DNA of 7,523 nt, taken from NCBI GenBank assembly GCA_016839845.1, contig JAEOTL010000314.1:1-7523 (forward strand), in the 5' to 3' direction. This document shows positions 149 through 7,125 of the stretch, one piece after another. The stretch is from Promethearchaeota archaeon (lineage in GTDB: Archaea; Asgardarchaeota; Lokiarchaeia; Sigynarchaeales; SOKP01). The translations under genes were made by a program, and so were the position numbers. The notes under the pieces are model-generated. The model was not told the DNA's origin. It ran no database searches and saw only the letters and a list, made by a program, of their open reading frames with translations. The number at the start of each line of letters is the position of its first letter. The first letter of the stretch is position 1.

Positions 149-219
149 CAACTTTATCAAAAAGTTACTTGTTTCGAAATCTAACAAAAAACTAAACTTC
201 AAAAAAAAAAATTTGAAAA

Positions 220-254
220 ATTGTATTAAAGAATTTCTCTACCTTTAATACAAT
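220..254 (+). repeat. Perfect 12-bp inverted repeat in the leader of the secreted hydrolase gene
   Basis: ATTGTATTAAAG at 220-231 is exactly reverse-complementary to CTTTAATACAAT at 243-254, with an 11-base centre (232-242). It ends 8 bases before the first ATG (263) and just upstream of the GAGG motif at 265-268. It could be a dyad operator for a dimeric regulator or an RNA hairpin next to the ribosome landing site. No T-run follows, so it does not look like a terminator. Confidence 0.65.
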
Positions 255-264
255 CTTAAAAAAT

Positions 265-268
265 GAGG
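265..268 (+). promoter_or_regulatory. Shine-Dalgarno motif that favours the second ATG (278)
   Basis: GAGG at 265-268 sits 9 bases before the ATG at 278. It lies inside the reading frame that would begin at the ATG at 263, which itself has no purine-rich motif before it (only TCTTAAAA). Initiation at 278 gives a conventional signal peptide with a short basic start. The 263 start adds only five residues. Confidence 0.5.
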
Positions 269-277
269 AAAAATATA

Positions 278-3193
278 ATGCAAACTAAAAAATTGAAGAT
301 TTATTTTGTAGTAATAGTCTTAGTTCTGGGGATTTTTGTATTTATAACACCCGCAACTTCTTGGAAATGGTATAATAATCCCAAGAAATCGAAGCTTGTT
401 TCAGAGGATGAGATGTTCGGTTGGATTGAGGAAATATGGGAAATAGGTGATCGAGGCCGGTATGGTTACCGAATGCCAGGAACACAAGCGGATATTGAAT
501 GTGCAGAATATATTTTAGAGAAATTTGATGAGTTTGGATTAGAAAACACATTATTAGAACCTGTACCAATACCTGTTAACTTTCCAGATGTATGGAGTTT
601 AACAACACACATAGGTGAAGTAGATAAATTAATACCTTGTGGTTTTGTTCGTTATGCTAATTTCACACCTCCAGGAGGAATTACTCGTAAAATGGTATAT
701 GTAGGAACGGGCTCAGAAGCAGAGTTCATAGCTGAAGCTGAAAACGGAGGAATTGAAGGTAAAATTGTCGTCGTGGATTTGATTGCTCCAGGTATTCCGA
801 TGGCAGCACTTGACTTATTTGATTTATATACTTACGATCCAGATAATAATTTGGCAGGAGATAAGATTACTGAAAATTGGCCTGTAAATAATATGCCCAG
901 TTCATATGATTTAGCTGCGGAATACGGTGCTGCTGGATTCGTTGGCATTCTTACATTTACCGCTAATGATATTCATCAATATTTGCATGCATATGTAGAT
1001 GGTCAAATTCCAGGAGTTTATATAAGTCCAAATGATGGTGATGATTTGAGGAGTTTACTATTAGATGGAACTCCAGTCGAAGCGACAATAGTTTTGACTG
1101 GCTATGAGGGAATAGGAGAAACCTTCAATGTATATGGATATTTACCTGGAAAATCAGATGAAACTATCATCGTTTATACTCAGCATGATGGATGGGGTAC
1201 AAACGAAGGTTCAGGCGTATCGGTAGTTATGGCTTTAGCTAAATACTTCTCCCAAATTCCTAAATGTAAAAGAGAACGATCGCTAATGTTCCTTATGTTA
1301 GCAAGTCATTTTGGTAAACGACCTCCTTTATTAGATATGTGCCATGAAGTTGCTGCGATACAAGATAAAATTGTAGCTGCTATTAGCGTTGAGATGATCT
1401 CAAAACAATATAAGATTGCAGGGGGAGAATTTGTTGAAACAGGTTTAATCTCTCCAAGAGCGCTATTTGTTTCAGGATTACCAGGATCAGCAAATCAGTA
1501 TTTATTAGATTTTGCTATAGATGCTGTTGTTGAAAACGATCTAGATCGGACATCTATTCAACCTGCTGCTGGAGGTCTCTTTCCACACGCACCAGGAGAA
1601 GGTGGCTTATTTGATATGATAGGAATACCAATTGTGCACCTTATTGCTCACAATGCCCCTCAATTCACTAATATGGATACTCCAGACACAGTCCAAAAAG
1701 ATGCTTTAGTGCCTACAGTTAAAGCATTAAGAGATATCGTCGAAAAAATTGACGATACCCCCGCAGCTTTAGTGAAATGGGAAATGACCATAGAAGATAG
1801 AGGCATAAAAGTATATTCAGAACTGAGAGAAGATGCATGGGAGTTAGAAGTACCTCCATTTGGATCCTATGATAGAATAGGGGTGCGTAGAGTTGTAAAA
1901 GAGGGTATTGAACCAGAGGGTGTAGTATTCATCTTACCAGGAACTTGGAGTAACGGTGAACAATTAACTTCAAATCCACCTGAAGATAAGTGGACTGCAG
2001 ATGAGGATCATAGTTTCGCTCTCTATCTTGCAAATAGAAATTTTGATGTTTATGCAATAGATTATAGAACCCACTTTGTAAACCAATACTTGAATCCTCC
2101 TGATCTTGGCTTTATGGCCTATTGGGGTTGGGACCAGTGGATTAGCGATATAAAAGAAGCAGTAGAATTAGCTAAAGCTATATCTGGGGCTAAGAGAGTT
2201 TATTTAGCAGGTGATAGTTTTGGAGGGAGTGCAACTATGAATTATGCATCGATGTATTGGAAAGAAGATCTCAAAGGCATATTATTACGGGATGGTGGAA
2301 CAGGAACTAAATACCCCGAACGTGTTACTAACTCATTCAACTTAACAGCTGTGATTGCTGGAATGATAGCAACGGGTAGTTGGGCTAATGAAGTAGGAGG
2401 TGCTCCTGGATCAATATTTGTAATGCAATATGCTGATCAAAATCCAACAGCTCCTGCTGAATTTCCACCAGGAACTCCCCTTGAACCTACAATAAATCCT
2501 TATACAAGTTTAGAGTGGACAAATATACAAGAGTGGGCAGCATTTATGATTTATATGGCATGGGGTCCAGGTGTTGTTAGTAATATTTATGGAGGGAAGG
2601 GTGATCCGGCTGTAATGATACACATTGATGCGACTTTTGATAGATATTGGCCTTCAAGATTAAGTCTTGAGAGTGCTGCAATAAGTGACTGGGATAATTG
2701 CCCATATGTAACATTTGATTTTGATGACCATTATAGTGAGATTGATGTTCCAATCCTTGCTTTTACAAGTGAGTTGATGGGATTAGCTTATTGGGGTCCA
2801 TTCAGAAGCGGTACTGCTAATCCAGATTTCACAGGAATATATCTTTGGGAATATGGTCACTTGGATGTGTACTCTGGTGAATATTCAGCAGAACAAGTGA
2901 GTCAACCAACCTACCAGTGGTTAATGAGTCATAGAATGCTTGTTGGGTTTGGTAGAGCCGGATCTTCCAGAAGGTGTGGTTATGAAGCTGCGATCTATAT
3001 TAATGCTACTACAATCGAACTTAGAATTGAGGAACAACGCATCTCATGGGATATTTACTATCACCGTATTTTCACATGGAACGAGAAGTACAAAGGAATG
3101 AATATTTGTGGTAAGATCACAGTTCATATTTCGAAAAAAGGATTCGCTTTTGCAAGTGGTCGTAAAGTCTTCTTTATGGGAATTAAAGTATAA
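278..3193 (+). CDS. Secreted M28-like (pseudo)peptidase with PA domain fused to an alpha/beta hydrolase
   Basis: This is an exported multidomain protein. Residues are counted from the in-frame ATG at 263; the ATG at 278 (Met6) is preferred because of its Shine-Dalgarno motif. A basic stretch and hydrophobic segment (12-29) with a plausible cleavage site after Ser33 form a signal peptide or anchor. Residues 48-98 look like the M28 N-terminal segment (RMPGTQADIECAEYI). Residues 110-280 contain PA-domain hallmarks (GGIEGKIVVVDL, EYGAAGFVGI, IPGVYISPNDG). Residues 285-497 follow the M28 fold, but the usual metal-ligand positions are changed: QHDGW (307-311) for HxDxW, NEGSG (314-318) for D-x-GSG, ASHF (347-350) for the EE pair, and FTNMDT (468-473) without the final His. 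Residues 540-895 are an alpha/beta hydrolase with the GDSFGG elbow (650-655, Ser652) and GHLDVY (His866); Glu837 is a possible acid. Residues 897-976 are a beta-rich tail of unknown type. Inference: a cell-surface or secreted serine hydrolase whose M28 half has a binding or structural role. The substrate is unknown. Confidence 0.85.
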   Translation: MQTKKLKIYFVVIVLVLGIFVFITPATSWKWYNNPKKSKLVSEDEMFGWIEEIWEIGDRGRYGYRMPGTQADIECAEYILEKFDEFGLENTLLEPVPIPVNFPDVWSLTTHIGEVDKLIPCGFVRYANFTPPGGITRKMVYVGTGSEAEFIAEAENGGIEGKIVVVDLIAPGIPMAALDLFDLYTYDPDNNLAGDKITENWPVNNMPSSYDLAAEYGAAGFVGILTFTANDIHQYLHAYVDGQIPGVYISPNDGDDLRSLLLDGTPVEATIVLTGYEGIGETFNVYGYLPGKSDETIIVYTQHDGWGTNEGSGVSVVMALAKYFSQIPKCKRERSLMFLMLASHFGKRPPLLDMCHEVAAIQDKIVAAISVEMISKQYKIAGGEFVETGLISPRALFVSGLPGSANQYLLDFAIDAVVENDLDRTSIQPAAGGLFPHAPGEGGLFDMIGIPIVHLIAHNAPQFTNMDTPDTVQKDALVPTVKALRDIVEKIDDTPAALVKWEMTIEDRGIKVYSELREDAWELEVPPFGSYDRIGVRRVVKEGIEPEGVVFILPGTWSNGEQLTSNPPEDKWTADEDHSFALYLANRNFDVYAIDYRTHFVNQYLNPPDLGFMAYWGWDQWISDIKEAVELAKAISGAKRVYLAGDSFGGSATMNYASMYWKEDLKGILLRDGGTGTKYPERVTNSFNLTAVIAGMIATGSWANEVGGAPGSIFVMQYADQNPTAPAEFPPGTPLEPTINPYTSLEWTNIQEWAAFMIYMAWGPGVVSNIYGGKGDPAVMIHIDATFDRYWPSRLSLESAAISDWDNCPYVTFDFDDHYSEIDVPILAFTSELMGLAYWGPFRSGTANPDFTGIYLWEYGHLDVYSGEYSAEQVSQPTYQWLMSHRMLVGFGRAGSSRRCGYEAAIYINATTIELRIEEQRISWDIYYHRIFTWNEKYKGMNICGKITVHISKKGFAFASGRKVFFMGIKV

Positions 3194-3818: not shown

Positions 3819-4523
3819 TTATTCATTTTTTTGAAGTGCTTTTTCTTTCAATTCAAATATAGCTTTTAGCGGTAATGAAAAATCGAAATAAATGAATGCA
3901 CTATTTGTATCCAATTCATGTTCTCTGGCGAGTTTTTCTAACTTTAACATATATTCTAGACGTATATCAAAAAATTTTTCATAGCATTCTTCATCTAAGT
4001 ATATAAGATTAAACCAAGGTCGTGTTTTAGTTAACCAATACTTAGCATATATATGTTTAGCCTTTTCAATGTCGTCCAAATTATCTTTCAAATCATTTAA
4101 TAAAGGATTTAAATAATCGAGTAATTTTTTGCCATTATAAATTGCCTTCTGATAATTCGCAATTTCACGTTCATAGAATTTTAGAAGTTTTTGGGGATCG
4201 TTTGAAGAAAGTATATCTTTAAAATCTGGCACCTCCTCCTTAACTTCAGGATTTATACGATAAAATTTTGCAGGAATCTTTCCTTCTTTTAATAATTTTT
4301 CTTTCCTTGAGAGTACGAGTCCATCTTCCTCCATTCTTCTTAAAACTCTTGATAGAGTAGATTTATTTCTCTTTGTTAACTTTGCTAAGTCAGATACATT
4401 TTTTTCATAATAAATTTGTAGAATCATCCAAATATCATACCGTAAGGGGTGACTGTCTATTAATTCTTCCCAAGTTTCTTCTGTACTCGGAAAAAAAGTT
4501 TTAATTTCTTTTCTTATTGACAT
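3819..4523 (-). CDS. Winged-helix (ArsR/TrmB-like) transcriptional regulator
   Basis: A 234-residue cytoplasmic DNA-binding protein. Residues 26-92 form a winged helix-turn-helix. LRYDIWMIL begins helix 1, NVSDLAKLTKRNKSTLSRVL (42-61) holds the two HTH helices with the recognition helix near 53-63, and MEEDGLVLSRKE plus PAKFYRINPE form the wing. LRYDIW and the K/R-x-T-LSRxLRxMEEDGLV pattern are typical of archaeal ArsR- and TrmB-type regulators. Residues 105-234 are mostly helical and charged, rich in aromatics (KYWLTKTRPWFNLIYLDEE, 161-179), and lack a recognised ligand domain. They may dimerise or sense a signal. The start is supported by AGGATG (4532-4537 on the minus strand) 8 bases before the ATG. 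The gene is divergent from the small secreted protein, and the shared 281-bp region carries a palindrome array that is a natural target for this protein (inference). No Cys metal-sensing motif is visible. Confidence 0.8.
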   Translation of the reverse strand: MSIRKEIKTFFPSTEETWEELIDSHPLRYDIWMILQIYYEKNVSDLAKLTKRNKSTLSRVLRRMEEDGLVLSRKEKLLKEGKIPAKFYRINPEVKEEVPDFKDILSSNDPQKLLKFYEREIANYQKAIYNGKKLLDYLNPLLNDLKDNLDDIEKAKHIYAKYWLTKTRPWFNLIYLDEECYEKFFDIRLEYMLKLEKLAREHELDTNSAFIYFDFSLPLKAIFELKEKALQKNE

Positions 4524-4567: not shown

Positions 4568-4669
4568 ATTAATAAAAATATTCATGTTCCTAAATAATTA
4601 ACTGTACGGTCTTATATTTACTTCTTTATTATAATATAGTTATTAATAGATATATATTTGATCATAAGA

Positions 4670-4678
4670 TTTATATAT
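4670..4678 (+). promoter_or_regulatory. Candidate TATA box for the small secreted protein gene
   Basis: TTTATATAT lies just upstream of the first palindrome. A start about 25 bases downstream (near 4698-4702) would fall inside that palindrome (4684-4709), the arrangement expected for repression at the initiation site, and would leave a leader of about 105 bases. A second A/T box at 4754-4762 (TTTTAAAAA) closer to the gene is an alternative and would place the array upstream of the promoter instead. Confidence 0.4.
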
Positions 4679-4683
4679 GGATC

Positions 4684-4754
4684 GTTGCATATTTCTTAAT
4701 TAATGCAACTAACCCGTTGCATATTATTAAATTAATGCAACGAATCAATTGCAT
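4684..4754. promoter_or_regulatory. Operator-like palindrome array, TTGCAT/ATGCAA half-sites with 32-bp period
   Basis: Two 26-bp palindromes (4684-4709 and 4716-4741) have identical 7-bp arms, GTTGCAT and ATGCAAC, around 12-base centres that differ in sequence. A third left arm, ATTGCAT, stands at 4748-4754. Left arms start at 4684, 4716 and 4748, so the period is exactly 32 bp, about three DNA turns. Between palindromes the facing arms form ATGCAAC-N6-GTTGCAT. The five half-sites alternate in orientation. The strict spacing with conserved arms and free centres is what cooperative binding of a dimeric regulator would select. The divergent winged-helix protein is the obvious candidate. Confidence 0.75.
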
Positions 4755-4804: not shown

Positions 4805-5431
4805 ATGAAAAAAACAAAAATACTTCTACTGGTAACATTGGGAATATGTATTATTAGCTTTATGCCAGCAGTAGTAGGAAAAGCAGATGTTAGACCAATT
4901 TCGGCCTTTACTGACACTAACGATGAAACAGGTGTAGTAGCATGGGTGGACTCCGAATATAATTTAATCCTTTTCCCTCATGGATTATGGTATGACCCAG
5001 AAAACATCACGAATTGTGAACACTCTGGTTCTGTACTCGTGAAAGACTTGAAAGATGGACGAATTTTGTATAAAGTGAATTTGCATGTAAAAGGTGCATT
5101 GATGTTGATTGCTTATTATGAAAATGAAAGTCAAATATTTGTAGGAAAAATGGATTATTCTTTCATAACAACCTTAATTGTTTATGGAGATGTTGATGAT
5201 CCAGTACCAAATCTTATTGATGTATGGTTTTTAGGTGGTGGCGAAAGTCCATTTCAGCATATAACGGGGAGTGGTACGGGGATATTTGTAGATGATGCTG
5301 CAGCAATTGCACGAGGGTTCGCTCCTGGAGCTACTGCGAAGGTAAAATTGAACCAAGTTGGTATTACTAAACCAGAGGGACACCCAATTTATCCCGGAAT
5401 ATGGCCTGTAGAATTAATCTTTTTCCACTAA
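4805..5431 (+). CDS. Small secreted protein of unknown function
   Basis: A 208-residue protein not matched to any known family. Residues 1-25 are a clear Sec signal peptide: KKTK, a hydrophobic core ILLLVTLGICIISFM, and a likely cleavage near Gly25 after AVV. The mature part of about 183 residues looks beta-rich, with alternating strands (NLILFPHG, GSVLVKDL, ALMLIAYYE, TTLIVYGDV, NLIDVWFLGGG). It includes a Gly-rich ITGSGTGIF turn (153-161) vaguely like allene-oxide-cyclase/dirigent-type barrels; that likeness is weak. One Cys (71) remains after signal removal, so there is no internal disulfide, and there are N-glycosylation sequons at Asn67 (NIT) and Asn107 (NES). No transmembrane helix or lipobox anchor is evident, so it is probably released or held by partners. 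AAAGGT (4789-4794) 10 bases before the ATG supports the start. The divergent regulator and the palindrome array suggest tightly controlled expression. Confidence 0.75.
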   Translation: MKKTKILLLVTLGICIISFMPAVVGKADVRPISAFTDTNDETGVVAWVDSEYNLILFPHGLWYDPENITNCEHSGSVLVKDLKDGRILYKVNLHVKGALMLIAYYENESQIFVGKMDYSFITTLIVYGDVDDPVPNLIDVWFLGGGESPFQHITGSGTGIFVDDAAAIARGFAPGATAKVKLNQVGITKPEGHPIYPGIWPVELIFFH

Positions 5432-5486
5432 AAAAGTCAAAAACAAGTGTTATAGCAAATAAAAGGAAATAAATTGTCTTAATTAA

Positions 5487-5580
5487 AAATATAGAAAGAG
5501 AAAGGAATTTGTTTAGATAAATGGCTTCTCGAATAACCACACCTGAACCAATATTCCTCTATTCTATATTTCTTTTTTTT
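5487..5580. terminator. Long imperfect hairpin with T-run between convergent genes
   Basis: AAATATAGAA (5487-5496) pairs perfectly with TTCTATATTT (5562-5571). The stem continues inward with AGAG/CTCT (5497-5500/5557-5560, one bulged A), GAAT/ATTC (5505-5508/5553-5556) and GTTTAG/CTGAAC (5511-5516/5543-5548, one G-U pair). A T-run follows at 5573-5580 on the plus strand. It lies between the stop codons of the small secreted protein and the helical-repeat protein, so a terminator for the plus-strand gene, perhaps bidirectional, is the simplest reading. The structure is longer than termination requires, so a processed 3' RNA is possible. Confidence 0.5.
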
Positions 5581-5601
5581 TATTTTTATATTTGTAGAAA
5601 T

Positions 5602-7125
5602 TTATTTTTTTAAAAAGAGACGTAATTGGAACATTCGCAGTAATTGCTCATCCAATCGGGCAAAGTCCATACGTTCATTAATAGAAATTCTTGATTTTTT
5701 TAAATTTTCCCATATACTTAATTGTTTAGCCAATTCCTCTTGCTCACTAGAAACTCTTATGACTAATCTGTTAAGTCCATATTTTTCGCATATATGTAGG
5801 GCTTGCACCAATAAATGTTGGGCTTTTTTTAAATCTAAGGTTATTAATTGGAGTTTTGCTTGAAGTAAAAGGGTTTCGGCTAATAACGAATAAGAGTGTT
5901 GATTCTTTGCAAGATCATGTATCCGAGTGATGTAGGACTGCGCCTGATCCAGTATTATTAGATTATTTGAGTCGCGCAGTTCAATCAGGAGCAAATCACA
6001 TAAATGAAGAAAGGCAGTAATAGTAATCGGCCAATAAACGATCTCTTCTTCAACAAACTGCTGTAATAATTCTTTAGCTTTTACTCGATCACTAGCTTTA
6101 GGACTAACTTTTAAAAGCAATACCTTGTATAGACGATAAATAGTATCATTTGTCTTGCTTTTCTCTCGATCTTTAAGCTGCTCCATACGATTAAGATATT
6201 GCTGTGCTCGAGAATAAGAGTTTATATGGATTGCTAAATCAAACAGCGAACTTAGGACGATAATTATCATGGATATGTTATTTATTTTCTCGTACTCCAT
6301 CAGACTTTTCTCAATGTAGTCTAGGGCAAGATCAAAATCATTCTGTTCGTAAAAAATAAGTCCCATATTGTTTAAAAACATCGGAATCAAATAATTATCA
6401 TTTAATTCATCGGCAAAAGCCAAACCCCGTTTACAATATTCCAGAGAGCTTTTCGATTCGCCAAGGAATCCTAGAATGCCATGAATACCCATAAGAAGAT
6501 GAGGTATATTCCGATTAAAACCATTACCTTCAAGTGCTAAACCTTTCTCAAAATATTCCCGAGCTCGTTCAAGTTCACCTTTTAAACCAAAACGGATTCC
6601 AAGTTGAGTAAGAGCACGTGCGATATCTTGTTTGTTACCAATTTCTTCTTGCAAAGTTAAACATTGCTCCAAGAATTGTAGGGCTAGATCTAATTCGCCT
6701 TTTTCCGAGTAAAAAAAGCCTTTTAGATATGATAAAGACGCTTTTCTTTGCATTGTCTCTTTCGAAGGCTCTTGAGTAATGGTTTTGAGTAGGTTTTCGC
6801 TTCTATCAATTATTTCAAAACTTCTATCTAATCTTCCTAGAAAGAGTAATGCTTCAGCAATTTCAATAGAAGCATCAAGTGTTTGGAGGGGATTTCCCAG
6901 TCTTTTGGTCTCTTGATAAATATGTTCAGAAACTTTCAGTGCATCTTCATTTTGTCCCAATCTATTTAAACATGTACTCTTAAGGAGTTGGCAGGATAGT
7001 TTTTCTTGAAAAGGAAGATCAGCCTTTTTTTCAAGTTTAGTTATTACTCGGAGGGCTTCCTTGAACTTACCCTGATTCTTAAGTTCTTCTGCCTCGTTTA
7101 ATTTCTTAATCTTTGAAAATTGCAT
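5602..7125 (-). CDS. TPR-like helical-repeat protein
   Basis: A 507-residue, almost wholly helical protein with no signal peptide or membrane segment, so cytoplasmic. TPR-type repeats cover most of it. The clearest are 130-163 (L134, G136, Y139, G143, A148, F151), 168-199 (L175, G176, F179, G183, A188, F192) and 248-281 (M254, G255, F258, A267, Y270). Weaker repeats lie near 9-32, 44-76, 84-116, 208-240, 290-316 and 412-447. The repeats of about 40 residues with a tail after each resemble the MalT/NB-ARC-linked TPR type. A basic, charged C-terminal segment (476-507) with NERMDFARLDEQLLRM is outside the repeats. TPR solenoids bind peptides or partner proteins; no enzymatic or DNA-binding domain is seen here. 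There is no Shine-Dalgarno motif before the ATG, and an in-frame stop lies 30 bases upstream, so the start is probably right and the mRNA may have a short leader. Such stand-alone TPR proteins are numerous in Asgard archaea (general knowledge, not checked here). Confidence 0.85.
   Translation of the reverse strand: MQFSKIKKLNEAEELKNQGKFKEALRVITKLEKKADLPFQEKLSCQLLKSTCLNRLGQNEDALKVSEHIYQETKRLGNPLQTLDASIEIAEALLFLGRLDRSFEIIDRSENLLKTITQEPSKETMQRKASLSYLKGFFYSEKGELDLALQFLEQCLTLQEEIGNKQDIARALTQLGIRFGLKGELERAREYFEKGLALEGNGFNRNIPHLLMGIHGILGFLGESKSSLEYCKRGLAFADELNDNYLIPMFLNNMGLIFYEQNDFDLALDYIEKSLMEYEKINNISMIIIVLSSLFDLAIHINSYSRAQQYLNRMEQLKDREKSKTNDTIYRLYKVLLLKVSPKASDRVKAKELLQQFVEEEIVYWPITITAFLHLCDLLLIELRDSNNLIILDQAQSYITRIHDLAKNQHSYSLLAETLLLQAKLQLITLDLKKAQHLLVQALHICEKYGLNRLVIRVSSEQEELAKQLSIWENLKKSRISINERMDFARLDEQLLRMFQLRLFLKK

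Follow-up and report, generated by a model that had tools for sequence, protein, structure and literature searches.

A candidate tandem operator between a winged-helix regulator gene and a secreted-protein gene in a Promethearchaeota archaeon

The analysis was carried out on a stretch of 7,523 nucleotides of contig JAEOTL010000314.1 from a Promethearchaeota archaeon (assembly GCA_016839845.1), referred to as the window, with up to 227 Promethearchaeota genomes as the comparison set. An array of short inverted repeats lies where the first-pass annotation had placed it, between a winged-helix regulator gene on the minus strand and a secreted-protein gene on the plus strand. The features used below are given with their positions in the window; G057 denotes a genome of the comparison set with an orthologous regulator.

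3819..4523, minus strand: gene of the winged-helix regulator (234 aa; open reading frame, Pfam), proposed to bind the array
4602..4620, minus strand: possible promoter of the regulator gene, TAAATATAAG then ACCGTACAG (read from the sequence, largely kept in G057)
4660..4663, plus strand: GATC element ahead of the TATA box, frequent but not universal in promoters of the regulator family
4670..4680, plus strand: TATA box TTTATATATGG of the secreted-protein gene (sequence, G057 identity, family comparison)
4683..4710, no strand: putative operator unit 1, CGTTGCAT-N12-ATGCAACT, spanning the transcription start predicted at about 4700
4715..4742, no strand: putative operator unit 2, CGTTGCAT-N12-ATGCAACG, an extended dyad (motif matching)
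4748..4754, plus strand: lone left half-site ATTGCAT, which reads GTTGTAT in the G057 array
4805..5431, plus strand: secreted-protein gene (208 aa; open reading frame), the proposed target, or cargo
5479..5583, plus strand: 3' element of 104 nt with nested inverted repeats, the core TGGCTTCTCGAATAACCACACC and a T-run (covariance model, 107.2 bits)
5602..7125, minus strand: gene of a TPR protein (Pfam TPR_12, 2.5e-22)

The secreted protein has a hydrophobic N-terminus, as judged by eye, and a beta-rich structure model (pLDDT 86). Its homologues (107 besides itself) come from Asgard archaea wherever an organism is given, and four relatives on named genome contigs all belong to Candidatus Lokiarchaeota. 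The fold search gave no PDB match at E ≤ 0.001 and the Pfam search nothing at E ≤ 0.1; a viral relative was sought and none confirmed. In G057, too, a member of the regulator family has a TPR protein nearby (L095 9226-10767, TPR_12 6.5e-10), and ORFs with a similar start, judged by eye, were seen near other members of the regulator family in addition to this case. Further upstream, positions 263-3193 encode a 976-aa protein with a hydrophobic N-terminus, in which Pfam recognised only a serine aminopeptidase/alpha-beta hydrolase part; as several of its homologues bear an M28 peptidase domain (PF04389), the protein looks like an M28-hydrolase fusion.

In the intergenic region (281 bp, 80% A+T), five TTGCAT/ATGCAA half-sites start at 4685, 4703, 4717, 4735 and 4749 on alternating strands, with start-to-start steps of 18, 14, 18 and 14 bp. 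They form two exact copies of GTTGCAT-N12-ATGCAAC (4684-4709 and 4716-4741) in a register of 32 bp, followed by the lone third arm ATTGCAT at the +32 position (4748-4754). The dyad centres, ATTTCTTAATTA and ATTATTAAATTA, are unlike, yet both end in AATTA. The first-pass annotation had described five alternating half-sites with these spacings, identical 7-bp arms around unlike centres and a third unit reduced to its left arm at the expected position, all of which agrees with the motif positions; its 32-bp register is exact in the window, but in G057 the spacer of unit 2 is N13 and the third arm lies 33 bp on. The centres of the arms CGTTGCA and TGCAACG are 21 bp apart, which puts both arms of a dyad on one face of the DNA at a distance of two turns, and 32 bp correspond to 3.05 turns at 10.5 bp. 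When the whole window was shuffled, three or more dyad matches at ≤3 mismatches were obtained in 1 of 200 shuffles (observed: three, two of them exact). The 281-bp intergenic region was also put through 5000 dinucleotide shuffles: in 3 of them some 6-mer containing two or more G/C, counted on both strands, was present at least five times, and in 1 there were at least five exact inverted pairs of 7 bp separated by 6-14, as many as observed. An unanchored palindrome scan was uninformative, the sequence being 80% A+T.

The first-pass annotation was silent on the TATA box just upstream of the array, whose position suggests a mechanism. The first half-site begins 13 nt past the first T of this box. 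If the transcription start is assumed to lie some 25-27 nt past the centre of the TATA box, it is predicted near 4700, inside unit 1; for msvR of M. acetivorans, the excerpted text of PMC3729527 gives a start 27 nt after the box. The GATC element, located about 7 bp ahead of the TATA box and accompanied by a second GATC 20 bp upstream in some relatives (L014, L015), is perhaps BRE-like or a site for a factor shared between the divergent promoters. The stretch comprising GATC and TATA box (4657-4682) is the same in G057 at 26 of 26 bases. On the opposite strand, the possible TAAATATAAG/ACCGTACAG promoter might carry an autoregulatory half-site, which we treat as a lead only.

The regulator contains a MarR/ArsR-type HTH at about residues 24-75 and a long, helical C-terminal part. 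In Pfam searches it scored above the cut-offs of MarR (PF01047, 27.5 bits, cut-off 24.6) and HTH_5 (PF01022, 25.9 bits, cut-off 22), below that of TrmB (PF01978, 24.0 bits, cut-off 25.6) and, in NCBIfam, at 19.1 bits against a cut-off of 220 for the MsvR equivalog. A sequence profile search of the PDB returned only PagR and HlyU at E ≤ 0.01 and, at this threshold, no match to Phr (2p4w). The best Foldseek match of the structure model was Phr 2p4w (E 3e-4, TM-score 0.29), obtained with a low-confidence model that is weak outside the HTH (mean pLDDT 57). The 50 homologues besides the regulator itself are from Asgard archaea in every case with an organism given; regulators at 88% and 83% identity (P0002, P0003) come from metagenome contigs.

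One independent copy of this exact array was found, in G057. The regulator beside it is identical to that of the window in 204 of 234 residues (90% at the DNA level), and the recognition helix KRNKSTLSRVL is common to both. The gene divergent from it encodes a protein of 449 aa whose N-terminus is hydrophobic; this protein scores just above the cut-off of a pectate-lyase-like Pfam family (27.2 against 27) and stands outside the cargo family of the window, whose profile matches only another gene of 243 aa in that genome (E ≤ 0.001). Apart from the spacing differences given above, the two arrays are alike: the arms agree in 33 of 35 bases, with both mismatches in the lone third arm, against 105/133 and 30/50 in the flanks and 30/37 in the spacers. 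The cargo relatives L001-L003 (70, 62 and 57% identity) are without such an array, and their genomes, which may be incomplete, gave no regulator match at E ≤ 0.001; L004 (46%) is likewise without the array, and the regulator is found elsewhere in that genome. As the array is present with the regulator though the cargo differs, and absent where the regulator is absent, it follows the regulator and not the cargo. The expectation that it would be found beside homologous gene pairs thus held for the regulator, with which it is kept in G057 despite the other cargo, but a second locus with both genes orthologous was not found in the genomes compared. The comparison strongly supports the earlier proposal that the winged-helix protein encoded next to the array binds there, all the more as promoters of related regulators carry half-sites in the corresponding position, often with a matching second arm.

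The regulator family comprises 20 places at E ≤ 5.4e-45 (the next at 1.0e-24) in 16 of 227 genomes. For the operator survey, the best 20 of 30 regulator places were used, leaving out 10 weaker ones (E 1e-24 to 3e-16); G064:C50 was omitted for lying at a contig end with no upstream DNA, so that 19 places and the window gave 20 promoters. When the TATA boxes were picked by eye with the half-site in view, a half-site begins 11-14 nt after the first T in 19 of the 20 promoters (+13 in 14, +14 in four, +11 in one). In a blind retest, every TTTAWA in the 20 intergenic regions was considered (62 sites), and 18 regions had a 6-of-8 match at +11 to +14 to CGTYSCAT, a consensus read from the same promoters that it was tested on; as controls, 4-wide offsets elsewhere matched in 0-6 regions, the minus strand in 5 and base shuffles in 0.64 on average (highest 5 in 500). 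A 7-of-8 match was present in 13 regions, with 0-4 at other offsets, 2 on the minus strand and at most 1 in shuffles. The bumps at other offsets stem at least partly from second units of tandem arrays (window, G057).

The second arm, assessed for the 19 sites downstream of a TATA box, is clear (at least 6/8) in 10, partial (5) in two and weak (at most 4) in seven, and the group G054/G043/G004/G031 has the left arm only. Right arms compared with their own left arms scored 106 against a permutation mean of 97.7 (62 of 5000 permutations as high); with one promoter per group, and hence without near-duplicates, the result was weaker (63 against 57.6, 171 of 5000 as high). Against shuffled bases, the own-arm match was reached in 0 of 2000. 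Elsewhere, the spacer of clear dyads is N11 or N12, and in one case N8. Tandem units are also present at a G057 paralogue (L095 8340-8680), as a degenerate dyad followed by CGTCCCAT-N13-ATGGGAC.

The half-sites of the G057 paralogues differ (CGTTGCAT, TTTCCCAT and TGTCCCAT), and such differences between paralogues of one genome suggest separate half-site codes. In L095 (G057:C206, 543-9011), three successive regulators, the third cut short at 115 aa, are each divergent from a different gene and have differing operators. The recognition-helix residue before SR is L with TTGCAT (window, G057 and the GTPase fusion of G039), V with YCCCAT and A with TTTCAT (G007), with G095 as an exception (V with CGTTTCA); a tie between this residue and the half-site is only a lead. 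The helix of G057 paralogues reads KQSKSTV. The divergent product has a hydrophobic N-terminus, by eye, in at least 9 of the 20 cases (window, three in G057, G052, G039, G055, G056, G051). The divergent neighbour is a small membrane protein in G054 and a 597-aa ORF without obvious signal in G095, and in G007 no clear partner was seen past a 100-aa ORF, so that a secreted-protein target is not a simple rule; the region in G004 is partly masked.

A genome search for the dyad, which the first-pass annotation had put forward as a check, located GTTGCAT-N11-14-ATGCAAC at seven places in 6 of 227 Promethearchaeota genomes, with 3 for the reversed control. The only genome with two places is G057, both within the array beside the orthologous regulator, but the other five are near the control level and need mean nothing. 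The relaxed pattern TTGCAT-N10-15-ATGCAA matched G057 at five places (reversed control 0), two in the array and three inside ORFs; no intergenic dyad copy outside the array was found in this genome, which suggests a local regulator with a single target. A pattern of TATA box and GTYCCAT dyad, run against 79 genomes, gave eight matches (reversed control 1), namely four regulator-family promoters, from which the pattern was taken, and four sites inside ORFs. In L106 (G039:C24), a perfect CGTTGCAT-N13-ATGCAACG at about 1500-1528 lies about 20 nt upstream of an ORF (154-1482, minus strand) for a 442-aa small-GTPase/winged-helix fusion, whose HTH matches that of the window at 31% over 62 aa and has L before SR.

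Downstream, the secreted-protein gene is followed by the 3' element, which consists of an outer stem (AUAUAGAA/UUCUAUAU), a GGAGGA/UCCUCC stem, an inner GUUUAG/CUAAAC stem, the core UGGCUUCUCGAAUnACCACACC and the T-run. A covariance model built from 18 sequences, one of them the window copy, found the element at 43 places, spread over 22 of the 227 Promethearchaeota genomes (E ≤ 1e-5); the model also matched the opposite strand weakly (among 60 matches, E 1e-5 to 1e-3), and these matches were removed by a 1e-6 cut. Copies in L095 are found at 404-507, 2878-2981 and 4420-4519. In a set of 40 distinct sequences, pairing extends to 88.4% of cells, and two-sided changes occur in 10 of 22 pairs (shuffles 4.3, 0 of 500), counts obtained from an alignment fitted to the structure, with related sequences inflating the covariation. 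Slid structures had up to 8 two-sided pairs, and a slide by +3 gave 21 such cells against 16, at 39-55% of cells paired. In RNAalifold, the unadjusted alignment yielded a weak structure, and the hand-named structure and the covariance-model alignment performed better.

Among 30 loci, the core lies 67-104 nt after an ORF in 15 (L120 and L138 being the same gene), and 14 of these ORFs, all except L112, show, as judged by eye, a hydrophobic segment close to the N-terminus. In four loci (L123, L125, L128, L141) the ORF is elsewhere within 400 nt or of another kind, in six there is no ORF within 400 nt (L113, L134 and L140 of these with well-matching cores), and in five the core is absent within 9 mismatches (L127, L131 and L132 with a hydrophobic-N-terminus ORF just upstream). 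None of the five sources searched gave an Rfam match at gathering scores, and the core had no exact match in viral contigs. An integron attC site, judged against the attC consensus, was rejected by arm order. The element is probably a transcript end, which would fall in the T-run near 5570-5583, and its conserved core suggests a bound protein. It follows genes of unrelated secreted proteins, is present in both the window and G057, and occurs in 13 of the 16 regulator genomes, a co-occurrence that may be shared ancestry, as these genomes are one lineage. Cargo and 3' element together were also found in genomes without a regulator match (G001, G002).

By analogy with TrmB and MsvR, a repressor site is the best reading of the array. 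We consider it, with a probability of about 0.75, a tandem operator (two dyads and a half) of the divergent winged-helix protein, by which the secreted-protein gene would be repressed; the mechanism would be of a known kind, and the operator reading is well supported by sequence comparison. We infer binding by the window's own regulator, repression over activation, induction and autoregulation. The two CGTTGCA arms of a dyad would be contacted by one regulator dimer, each arm in its own major groove and the grooves some two helical turns from each other, and further dimers would take unit 2 and perhaps the half unit. The site of unit 1, spanning about -17 to +11, would cover the expected start (about 4700), and once bound, the protein would keep RNA polymerase from being recruited to the secreted-protein gene; a signal, perhaps sensed by the C-terminal part of the regulator, would release it. 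The N8, N11 and N12 dyads of the family and the N13 and 33-bp step of G057 speak mildly against strict phasing; exact helical phase may not be essential, and cooperative binding is possible.

The same regulator could instead use the array as an activator site, its dimers helping to recruit TBP/TFB or polymerase. Such a role would suit the dyads of G095, located upstream of the TATA box only, and of G007, where CGTTTCAT-N12-GTGAAACG downstream of the TATA box is joined by a like dyad upstream, and, according to the excerpted text of PMC4158304, TrmB-type regulators of archaea both activate and repress. But the half-site stands just downstream of the TATA box in 18 of 20 promoters by the blind count and 19 of 20 by eye, a place linked to repression in the same excerpts, and we regard activation as unlikely. 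That the array serves some other protein (of nucleoid or recombination type, or a second regulator from another locus) and lies near this regulator incidentally is less probable still: the array stays with the regulator orthologue though the cargo differs, and the perfect dyad before the GTPase-winged-helix fusion gene of G039, which shows that this regulator is not alone in having the sequence and could speak for such a protein, is a single match within chance (control 3) at a gene encoding a distantly related HTH, and so also fits a cognate-HTH reading. That the palindromes act as hairpins of the leader mRNA (ATGCAAC-TAACCC-GTTGCAT and ATGCAACGAATCAATTGCAT), tuning translation or stability, is the least credible, for although a start near 4700 would put both in the mRNA and a structured element is present at the 3' end, the first arm would lie upstream of the start and outside the RNA, yet the left arm after the TATA box is the best kept in the family, and unit 2 of G057 is 1 bp off in spacing with its arms intact.

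Beyond the tandem operator itself, the material allows a wider reading, offered tentatively and with the odds clearly against it, of a Lokiarchaeota cassette system in which each regulator would have an operator code to itself, and different secreted-protein genes would be exchanged between a fixed promoter frame and the fixed 3' RNA element. The codes would be GTTGCAT, TTTCCCAT, GTCCCAT and GTTTCAT, and the outcome, a doubtful one to the same degree, would be separately switched surface proteins. The idea derives from regulator and array staying together while the cargo changes, and from cargo and 3' element being found without the regulator. Among the matches listed from the open-licence PMC literature, the regulator family, the codes and the cargo exchange were not described, and the matches listed from open-licence PMC titles and abstract starts included no Asgard regulators or RNA elements of such kind. 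As far as we know, experiments on gene control in Asgard archaea are very few. The present case defines a regulator together with a probable binding code and a probable target closely enough for direct testing; the paralogues of one genome with differing half-sites form a natural set for how a winged helix chooses its DNA, and a 3' element with covarying stems marks secreted-protein genes.

Bacterial repressors are known with tandem cooperative operators, in which several identical inverted repeats lie roughly whole helical turns apart; the array of the window is like these in repeat layout, as read from the sequence, and differs in its archaeal TATA promoter. The site of Phr, the heat-shock regulator of Pyrococcus furiosus, covers the transcription start. 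In the excerpted text of PMC10746257, Phr is a negative regulator reading a palindrome, and, unlike the window regulator, it controls many heat-inducible genes. MsvR, as described in the excerpts of PMC3729527, is like the window regulator an archaeal HTH protein, divergent from a target operon in one species, with more than one inverted-repeat box per intergenic region; its boxes overlap BRE/TATA or the start site between divergent genes, and it represses via promoter blocking with a box spacing that tolerates a 1-bp change. Unlike the window regulator, MsvR has a V4R domain and boxes of the form TTCGTA-N4-TACGAA, as against GTTGCAT arms and a 12-bp gap. TrmB, TrmBL1 and Tgr, in the parts of the TrmB review that we cite (PMC4158304), share with the window a wHTH and palindromic sites downstream of BRE/TATA at repressed promoters, archaeal sites in this place going with repression, and differ in their motifs (TACT-N3-AGTA or TATCAC-N5-GTGATA) and sugar ligands. 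With its first half-site at +13, the array of the window lies just after the TATA box, as is characteristic of TATA-proximal repressor operators of archaea, whose sites overlap or directly follow the TATA box or the start.
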